Positions 43,014 through 46,000 of a DNA stretch of 64,000 nt are shown piece after piece. The first letter of the stretch is position 1; every line of letters starts with the position of its first letter. A model generated the notes under the pieces. That model made no database searches and was not told the DNA's origin. It worked only from the letters and a program-made list of their open reading frames with translations. This stretch comes from Tubiluchus corallicola (Eukaryota > Priapulida > Priapulimorpha > Priapulimorphida > Tubiluchidae), in assembly GCA_030141605.1 (NCBI GenBank), contig JAQGDQ010000137.1, positions 248,001 to 312,000 on the forward strand, in the 5' to 3' direction. The position numbers were made by a program, and so were the translations under genes.

Positions 43014-46000
43014 TTACACCTTAGACTTTCCCTGGACAGGTAAATAGAGTTTAAACTCAGCAGGTAGTTCGTCTTCTGAGTAAAGCCGATCAGAGAAATA
43101 AACACGTCGTATTCTACAGTTTGCATGTATCTGAAAACAAGTGAACAGGACAAACAATTAAAGATGTGTCAAAAAACAGTATTTTTAACAAACCTAATTT
43201 ATAATTAAGCAAGCCGAGAATGACTATTTATTCACTTGTTTGTTTTCTTTTCGTGGGCAGCCAAGTCAAGTAGGTCGCCAACACTTTTCGTCCAAGACAT
43301 GATCAATTTTTTGAAGCTTAAGTATTGTTTTATTGGGGAAGTGAGAAGACATTAACAAAGGTAACAGTACAGTGTTCAAACTAGGCATGGATGTTTTTCA
43401 TGATAAGGAATTTCACAGGGCAAGACTGAGTGGACTAGACTGGAAAAGAAAGTGAGTGAGTGTGCAAGGGATTATTATTATTATGCCTTTTTATTAAACA
43501 ATAAATACATTGTTTCCCCTCCACAGTGGAAGTGCAAGGGAGAGAGAGAGAGAGAGAGAGAGAGAGAGAGAGAGAGAGAGAGAGAGAGAGAGAGAGAGAG
43601 AGAGAGAGAGAGAGAGAGAGAGAGAGAGAGAGAGAGAGAGAGAGAGAGAGAGAGAGAGAGAGAGAGAGAGAGAGAGAGAGAGAGAGAGAGAGAGAGAGAG
43701 AGAGAGAGAGAGAGAGAGAGAGAGAGAGAGAGAGAGAGAGAGAGAGAGAGAGAGAGAGAGAGAGAGAGAGAGAGAGAGAGAGAGAGAGAGAGAGAGAGAG
43801 AGAGAGAGAGAGAGAGAGAGAGAGAGAGAGAGAGATACCTGCACTCTTAATGTTTCGATGTAATTAGTGCCGTAAGCACGACGTGTGAAATCGGATAAAT
43901 TAAACTGAATTTGATTCCAACCGTCATCCAGTCTCATAGGCATTGTGCAGATAAATGGCTTCACACGTGTTGTGCTTTGGTAGTTGCTAGCTCGGAACCT
44001 CCTACGTACATTTTTGTCATCCAATACCTACCAAAAGAGTTTTGTACATATACAATTATATATTGTATGTCATATACATCCGATAAATACACGAAAGCAA
44101 CACTAAAATACATGTTATTTACATATCATTCATGCACAGATGCATATCAAAAGTGATTTTACAATCATTATTAAAAGTTCAGAGAAAAAAACTGAAAGGG
44201 CAAAGAGAACTCTAGATTTGAGAGACGTGCATTGTGGATAGCAGCAACAAATGCTAGAACTTCATGTCAATAAGAAGGCTGTGCTATATTTTGGAATGTG
44301 CAGTACGTAGACGATAATGAAAGAAATTATACAAAAATTAACTGTCTCAGCATACAGTAGAATGTACTGTGATTTCACAAGGCATATATATTATTTAGTT
44401 GAGTTTGGAATATCTTCAGCCAGATAAATACATACATAACGTAACTAATCACAAAAATGGTGATGTTATTTGTGCAGCAAAACATTTACAATCTTATTGT
44501 AAACAACTACACTATAACTCAAGTATAGAAGTTTGTTCAACTGAAAAATCACTGTTCGTATCAAGTGTAATGTAAATGCGGCACTGGACCAAGACCAATA
44601 TTTCGTAACAAGTGTAAATGCTGCATTGGACCGAGACCAGTATTTTGTATCAAGTGTAAATGCGGCACTGGACCAATGTTCGTATCAAGTGTAAATGCGG
44701 CACTGGACCAAGGTCGATGTCTAGTGCAAATCAGGTACTACTATAAATTTTACAATTTTGTAACTTACTACTGTTTACCATTATACCAAAATTCACAATT
44801 AGTCAATGTTTCCCTCAAAGCAAAAATTAAAGAGAAAGACATCAAAGCAAACCTGCACTTCAAATGTGAAATATTTCTTGAGATTCTTTATTATCATAAC
44901 CAAGAATGGCAGTTTTATACCCAGTGTCTTCTTTGGATCGGCAGGACATGTGATATAAGTTGTGCTGTAAGAATAAATAGAACTAGAACCTGGTTTCTTT
45001 TATTTAGTAATTTCCAAAATACAGCTTGTTTTCATTTAAAAATTCACTTACAGTAATTTATTACTTGATTATTAGTCTGTTTGCAACATACTACATTAAA
45101 AGAAGGCACAACATTGTGATTAAGTGCATGTCTAGCTATTTCATGTTTCTGTTATTTTTTATTTAGTTTTTATGTCATTTGCTATTACAAAAAGCAAACG
45201 AAAAGTAAATAAGCACATTTACAACACAAACTAAGCATTGGCCACACAAAAAAACAACACAAGCCCAGCACAAAGATGTCATCAAAATGTTAACAAATCA
45301 TGGTACAGGACATTATTTTCATTCTCCCCACAAGGCTTACATTGCAGTTTTTGTTGTTAACAGGTAAGAGTTGTTCAAGTACTACAACACTTATTCAAGT
45401 TTTTTGAAAGCTGCAGCAGACCTTCCAAGTCTCACCCAATCGGAAGATTTCAGATTTTGCTGGTAACTTTACTAACCCTATTTATGTGACATTTCTCTGA
45501 CATTTAATTGAAATGAAACACAGTTGTTACTATCAAATATGGCAAAATGTACAAGATAATGCTATTTGATGTTGTCTGTCTGATTAAACGATTAAAAAGT
45601 AACTTATAATCTGAAAAAGTACCACTACTATTAAATTAAGTACTAAAATAGTTCTTCTAGATGTTCAAAATGCAATACTGGCTAGGTTCTAAATAGACTC
45701 CATTCCAGTGCTCACTCAAATCCTGGCCAATTTTTGTGAAATTTGTCTACTTTGCTGATTTATGGGTTGGAGTGTGTGCTGCAGTTATTCTTTACTGGAT
45801 GACAAAAAGCTGGAAGCTAAAGCACCTTTTATGTTCTGAATAAACTTAATTTTTTACCTAACATTTGTGCCAACAATCTCAAGTACAAGGGACTGAATAT
45901 CATTGTCTGTAATTCTTTTTATGTGGCCATTCCGCACCTAAAAAAATATGCACAGTTAAAATTGTAAATATTCTTAATGAAACAGTCAATGAGCTGATAA

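Follow-up and report, generated by a model that had tools for sequence, protein, structure and literature searches.

The window, a stretch of 64,000 nucleotides, contains the gene CFAP20, which lies on the − strand and comprises five coding exons. These are exon 1 with the start codon (47435..47518), exon 2 (45858..45937), exon 3 (44853..44964), exon 4 (43839..44027; 189 nt, phase 0 at both ends) and exon 5 with the stop codon (43014..43130), which as a spliced reading frame give 193 codons plus the stop, with introns 1 to 4 measuring 1497, 893, 825 and 708 nt, respectively. The Pfam CFA20 domain (PF05018, E = 8.5e-96) spans residues 1–184 of the 193, nearly the whole protein, identifying the product as CFAP20. 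In comparison with the solved CFAP20 chain 7rro_XA, which is bovine, 189 of the 192 compared residues are identical. Intron 4 (43131..43838), the last intron of the coding region, has GT-AG borders that are fixed by the protein: the exon 4–5 junction, 43839/43130, falls between Q and I in phase 0, and its position after CAG, with the acceptor TTTTCAG, is likewise set by the conserved protein. Use of the exon 4 donor is thus something that we infer from protein conservation. The gene, exon number and junction proposed in the initial annotation all hold, since this junction yields the conserved protein, and its portrayal of the gene as near-invariant agrees with the identity to 7rro_XA. Intron 3 additionally contains a 42-bp minisatellite of 3.5 copies (44571-44712). 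In the fly, the gene carries the name Bug22. A survey (PMC6826512) places Bug22 amongst the genes duplicated in all insects surveyed, and a second copy may exist elsewhere if the present DNA is from an insect. No relative of CFAP20 was confirmed amongst 144 pattern matches in prokaryote contigs or 24 in viral contigs.

With regard to the remainder of the window, open stretches on the + strand between 48100 and 56700, upstream of CFAP20, read like the exons of one gene and presumably resemble an RGS22-like protein; with that identity, the gene would stand head to head with CFAP20. Pfam searches of three of these stretches (51351-52244, 53758-53976 and 55866-56165) and NCBIfam searches of five produced no match, and comparison of 56444-56671 with solved structures gave a chance-level match only. 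Two further + strand regions display recognizable domains, namely a sushi repeat at 31531-31752 (E = 1.7e-05) and a LITAF-like zinc ribbon at 40654-40863 (E = 2.8e-09). A 462-bp element is present in two copies of opposite orientation, 18108-18569 and 29757-30218, which are 99.35% identical; it possesses terminal inverted repeats of about 31–34 bp, its second copy lies at the end of a (TA)28 tract (29703-29758), and by sequence it looks like a recently active DNA transposon of the MITE type. The region 23593-24106 aligns with its reverse complement at 75% identity across 416 columns, representing an imperfect palindrome of ~0.5 kb that could form a long hairpin, and an old dispersed repeat occurs at 32188-32574 and 50042-50460, with 68% identity over 426 columns. 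Searches of the window using Rfam (gathering scores) and ARAGORN returned no matches.

Exon 4 of CFAP20 ends in GTGCAG at 43839, and its intron begins with GTA (43838-43836), following which a perfect (TC)148 tract commences without a gap. This tract, found using Tandem Repeats Finder and an exact pattern match, occupies 43540..43835, or positions +4 to +299 of intron 4, and reads as (GA)148 on the + strand; as the coding strand is −, the CFAP20 RNA carries (UC)148. Tandem Repeats Finder reports 296 bp, 148 copies, 100% matches and no indels, and the head-to-tail arrangement of 2-bp units makes the tract a dinucleotide microsatellite. The exon end (AGAGTGCAG) and the three non-repeat intron bases together occupy 43836..43847 on the − strand, and with the first bases of the repeat generate the donor CAG/GTATCT (the slash marking the border), in which +4 to +6 are T, C and T, with C therefore at +5. 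With four extra pyrimidines at its far end, the pyrimidine run extends to 300 nt (43536-43835, intron +4 to +303). Elsewhere in the window, runs of purines or pyrimidines reach 18 nt at most, and 20 first-order Markov surrogates had maxima of 14–19 nt. For comparison, an ordinary run of 11 pyrimidines, TCTTTCTCTTT, is located at +14 to +24 of intron 3 (44829..44839, − strand). The initial annotation had described a fourth exon ending in GTGCAG, an intron start running directly into CT repeats, exactly three intron bases outside the repeat, and a donor that is microsatellite from +4 to +6 with C at +5, all of which can be read in the sequence. Its count of about 147 units (295 bp) was one unit short, and the end of its stated span (43541..43842) reaches into the exon. 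The CT tract beside the CFAP20 donor is a real observation, and amongst the listed titles and abstract beginnings of open-licence papers no earlier case of a long CT repeat at a splice donor was found.

The initial annotation also implied that this donor is unusually weak, which is not upheld by comparison with the other donors of the gene. U1 duplex energies (ViennaRNA) for donors 1 to 4 are −7.6, −6.7, −6.4 and −7.2 kcal/mol, values that are not splice-site scores, as they omit the pseudouridines of U1, pairing with U6 and proteins. Donor 4 is thereby the second best of the four and sits within the range of the others (−6.4 to −7.6 kcal/mol), all four being far from the consensus (full match −14.0 kcal/mol). 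Amongst the 7681 GT sites on both strands, 1.8% pair with U1 at least as well as donor 4. The base at +5 is G in two of the four donors (1 and 3), A in donor 2 and C in donor 4; C at this position is not decisive. On the duplex energies and the mean accessibility detailed below, an unusually weak donor 4 is not supported. A scan for alternative donors covered 60 GT/GC sites, in a region that starts 50 nt ahead of exon 4 and closes with intron 4, and revealed two that outrank donor 4 by U1 duplex, at 44031 (−10.7 kcal/mol) and 43842 (−7.4 kcal/mol). The former, TTGGTAGGTAT, is excluded as a donor for exon 4 as it is located at the exon 4 acceptor, and the latter has the same CAGGTA letters as donor 4 and is read as the same pairing rather than as a separate site. 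The acceptor of this exon (TTTTGGTAG/GTATTGG, 44024-44036) overlaps the strongest U1 duplex of all 60 scanned sites (−10.7 kcal/mol).

Structural predictions suggest that donor 4 is relatively accessible. When folded with 150-nt flanks, its mean unpaired probability from −3 to +6 is 0.69, and in 600-nt stretches the corresponding values for donors 1 to 3 are 0.53, 0.37 and 0.38, compared with 0.69 for donor 4. Folding with 0, 2, 5, 10, 20, 40, 80 and 148 units resulted in values of 0.35, 0.55, 0.57, 0.61, 0.65, 0.67, 0.68 and 0.69, respectively, the first of which reflects changed letters after +3 and not length alone; there is little gain beyond ~20 units. The (UC)148 RNA itself is nearly unstructured in the predicted fold. 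Position-by-position pairing covers donor 4, with donors 1 to 3 compared by their means, and reveals that −2 to +1 are for the most part paired whatever the number of units (0.17, 0.05 and 0.31 unpaired at 148 units). This pairing favours the idea that the donor is hidden by an inverted repeat whose arms, AGTGCA and TGCACT, lie before and after the tract, respectively. That candidate was nonetheless rejected, as the mean from −3 to +6 exceeds those of donors 1 to 3 and rises with length, and on the modelled folds the inverted repeat is not convincing as a donor switch.

Turning to proteins that might recognize the tract, consensus motifs for PTBP1, using the list from PMC5716086, number 117 in the first 125 nt of intron 4, compared with 0 in exon 4 and 1 in the preceding 125 nt. 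In the 125 nt that follow each of exons 1, 2 and 3 there are 0, 0 and 4, respectively, and 5110 windows of 125 nt, amongst them those within the tract, have a mean of 0.89. The tract is thus densely packed with PTB-type motifs, in line with the initial annotation, with the proviso that the repeat itself generates the 117 motifs, so that their number says nothing about their use. Their layout at exon 4, with many downstream and few or none upstream, matches that of PTBP1-activated exons. TIA proteins, for their part, prefer U-rich RNA, and alternating CU may bind less well. The run at +4 to +303 exceeds the threshold for a TIA-type tract, which is a minimum of six pyrimidines in a row within 300 bases of the intron start; its size and place (296–300 nt, centred at ~+151) depart from the mean of 10–14 nt and the location at +15 to +25 that are usual for, rather than definitive of, such tracts (PMC2766253). 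As for the weak donor associated with them, −7.2 kcal/mol is well short of the −14.0 kcal/mol of a full match, yet resembles the other three donors of the gene.

The published literature offers some guidance as to what such a tract may do. In PMC2766253, which deals with 22 eukaryotes, pyrimidine tracts are found downstream of the donor in about 20–40% of introns, are enriched in almost all of these organisms at mean lengths of 10–14 nt, and in most metazoans have a presence that anticorrelates with donor strength. The same source describes TIA binding as enhancing the upstream donor in a model exon and PTB as often antagonizing TIA, and for the donors tested there it records no effect of extra PTB and no shift on TIA depletion. 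According to PMC5716086, PTBP1 bound downstream only promotes U1 docking on weak donors, the model exon having 11 motifs downstream and none upstream, and repression, e.g. of SRC exon N1, goes with PTB sites on both sides, upstream motifs being nearly absent from CFAP20 exon 4; the donors of PTBP1-activated exons often lack an AGU suffix. PTBP1 located between two donors is likewise reported to activate the upstream, weaker one (PMC4222953). Across these papers, TIA or PTB binding downstream mostly reinforces a weak donor. By analogy, these cases would argue for a tract that is neutral or helpful rather than harmful, extrapolated more than 20-fold in length and across species.

Several alternative explanations bear on splicing. 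One is that PTB, by coating the (UC)n RNA, governs U1 at the donor, such that exon 4 inclusion and intron 4 removal depend on PTB level and repeat number. Consistent with this are the downstream-only distribution of motifs (117, against 0 in the exon and 1 upstream) and the absence of an AGU suffix from donor 4, both of which recall PTBP1-activated exons in PMC5716086, as well as the make-up of exon 4, which is 189 nt long with phase 0 at either end and could be skipped without loss of frame. The motif count, however, follows trivially from the repeat, donor 4 is no weaker than its neighbours, and there is no sign here that exon 4 of this near-invariant protein is an alternative exon; we therefore consider such regulation unlikely. 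Very unlikely is its elaboration into a length-tuned dial, in which unit number would set the hold of U1 via PTB- or TIA-like proteins, CFAP20 output would vary between individuals, and the ends of a retained poly(Ser-Leu) tail would vary with repeat number modulo three. It also appears distinctly improbable that the tract is a mildly harmful expansion by which the removal of intron 4 is slowed, and whose retained transcripts would encode CFAP20 minus its last 38 residues plus a poly(Ser-Leu) end. As (TC)n has no stop in any frame, the retained reading frame runs through the tract: translation of 43497..43838 (− strand) predicts a valine followed by alternating Ser and Leu, the stop being reached after 114 residues at 148 units, with 155 native residues kept and the last 38 lost. 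At 148, 149 and 150 units the frame is open in each case, with predicted tails of 114, 119 and 135 residues and three different ends; this is in keeping with retention, as is the position of intron 4 as the last coding intron, and microsatellite expansions causing intron retention have been described (according to a reference title cited in PMC6651174). Arguing against it, donor 4 does not pair less well than the other donors of the gene and has a higher mean accessibility, and so conserved a gene would be expected to tolerate little loss. Moreover, intron retention in disease is tied to GC-rich, structured repeats, and (CU)n is nearly unstructured in the fold. The poly(Ser-Leu) tail is a consequence to look for if intron 4 is kept, and not an observation.

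Other explanations place the effect, or the tract itself, outside of splicing. In insects, GAGA-type factors bind to (GA)n, and such DNA has a tendency to form triplexes. The tract might accordingly act as DNA, affecting transcription rather than splicing; the type of sequence, a perfect 296-bp homopurine repeat, is the one point that speaks for this. Its position ~3.7 kb downstream of the start codon speaks against it, a narrow literature search requiring all six terms found no paper, and we deem it the least probable of the explanations weighed here. Scarcely more probable is an assembly error in the number of units or in the tract altogether, as coherent coding sequence and intron flank the tract on its two sides. 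HiFi data are described in PMC7545148 as systematically miscounting the units of microsatellite arrays and as losing coverage where long stretches are rich in A/G or T/C, which lends this possibility some substance and is why the figure of 148 units is to be held loosely. Length variation between individuals would in any case be expected by analogy with a wheat CT repeat of ~190 bp, which lies in a marker with alleles of 242–446 bp, and additionally a null allele, amongst 118 landraces (PMC5444437). Two further candidates were rejected. As to the tract being part of a transposon, intron 4 minus the tract has no other match within the window at E 0.01. The 10-bp direct repeat GTGCAAGGGA at 43462 and 43532 (43462-43541), between whose copies lie 60 bp on the intron side of the tract, could be a target-site duplication, but as such it is weak, because the window contains 52 pairs of 10-mers at 40–120 bp spacing, many of them inside minisatellites. 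As to the tract being a cryptic acceptor, where the first AG lies 19 nt after it, the tract has no A for a branch point, a rejection made by reasoning only.

The explanation that we favour, with a probability of about two in three, is that an ordinary dinucleotide microsatellite has grown up to a constrained donor core, with an effect on splicing that is neutral or mildly positive. Replication slippage would have lengthened a short stretch of pyrimidines with which intron 4 of CFAP20 began, with purifying selection seemingly holding the exon end and the donor core, CAG/GTA. It is because selection keeps these letters that the repeat would reach +4 and no further, and that the border looks so exact. 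From the calculated pairing, which is like that of the other donors of the gene, and from the higher mean accessibility, U1 should still recognize the donor via CAG/GTA. Judging by published mechanisms, a TIA/Rox8-like or PTB-like protein could bind the (UC)148 and, if anything, would help U1 to stay on the donor, so that, across a broad span of repeat lengths, splicing may on balance be unaffected or mildly improved. We counted in favour of an ordinary microsatellite that the tract is perfect and of a single unit type, and that an 11-nt pyrimidine run exists in intron 3 of the same gene. If a genome is assumed to contain long tracts in the thousands and roughly a hundred thousand donors, a few chance contacts between the two are to be anticipated. 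Behaviour at this length would be an extrapolation, as the tract exceeds the mean of 10–14 nt given in PMC2766253 by a factor of more than 20, and is centred at ~+151 rather than at +15 to +25. Nothing here shows a regulatory role, and the tract is most likely a microsatellite at an unusual address. A run of ~300 nt that abuts a donor in a near-invariant gene is, at the same time, a natural test of whether more tract gives more, equal or less splicing. If splicing is normal, as we expect, little of the donor beyond CAG/GTA is needed when a pyrimidine run follows.

Amongst known systems, intron 13 of eNOS reportedly harbours a CA repeat near the donor that is bound by hnRNP L, with a dependence on length; both there and in CFAP20 a dinucleotide microsatellite lies near a donor, the repeat being CA in the former and CU in the latter. 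The wheat Csl (tin) repeat of ~190 bp (PMC5444437) is similarly a long CT repeat of comparable length in a transcribed region, but it lies in the 5′ UTR and comes with population and expression data, whereas the CFAP20 tract lies at a donor and is represented by one sequence. Exon 6 of Dtx2, which is activated by PTBP1 (PMC5716086), resembles CFAP20 exon 4 in having many motifs downstream, almost none upstream and a donor without the AGU suffix. It differs in that its elements are 50–150 nt downstream and the exon is a PTB-activated alternative one, whereas the CFAP20 tract touches the donor and is known from sequence alone. Lastly, the tracts bound by TIA1/TIAR (Rox8 in Drosophila) are U-rich, average 10–14 nt and are centred at +15 to +25, as opposed to the 296–300 nt of alternating CU, centred at ~+151 and with putative binding, in CFAP20; common to both are uninterrupted pyrimidines that start less than 20 nt from the donor (PMC2766253).
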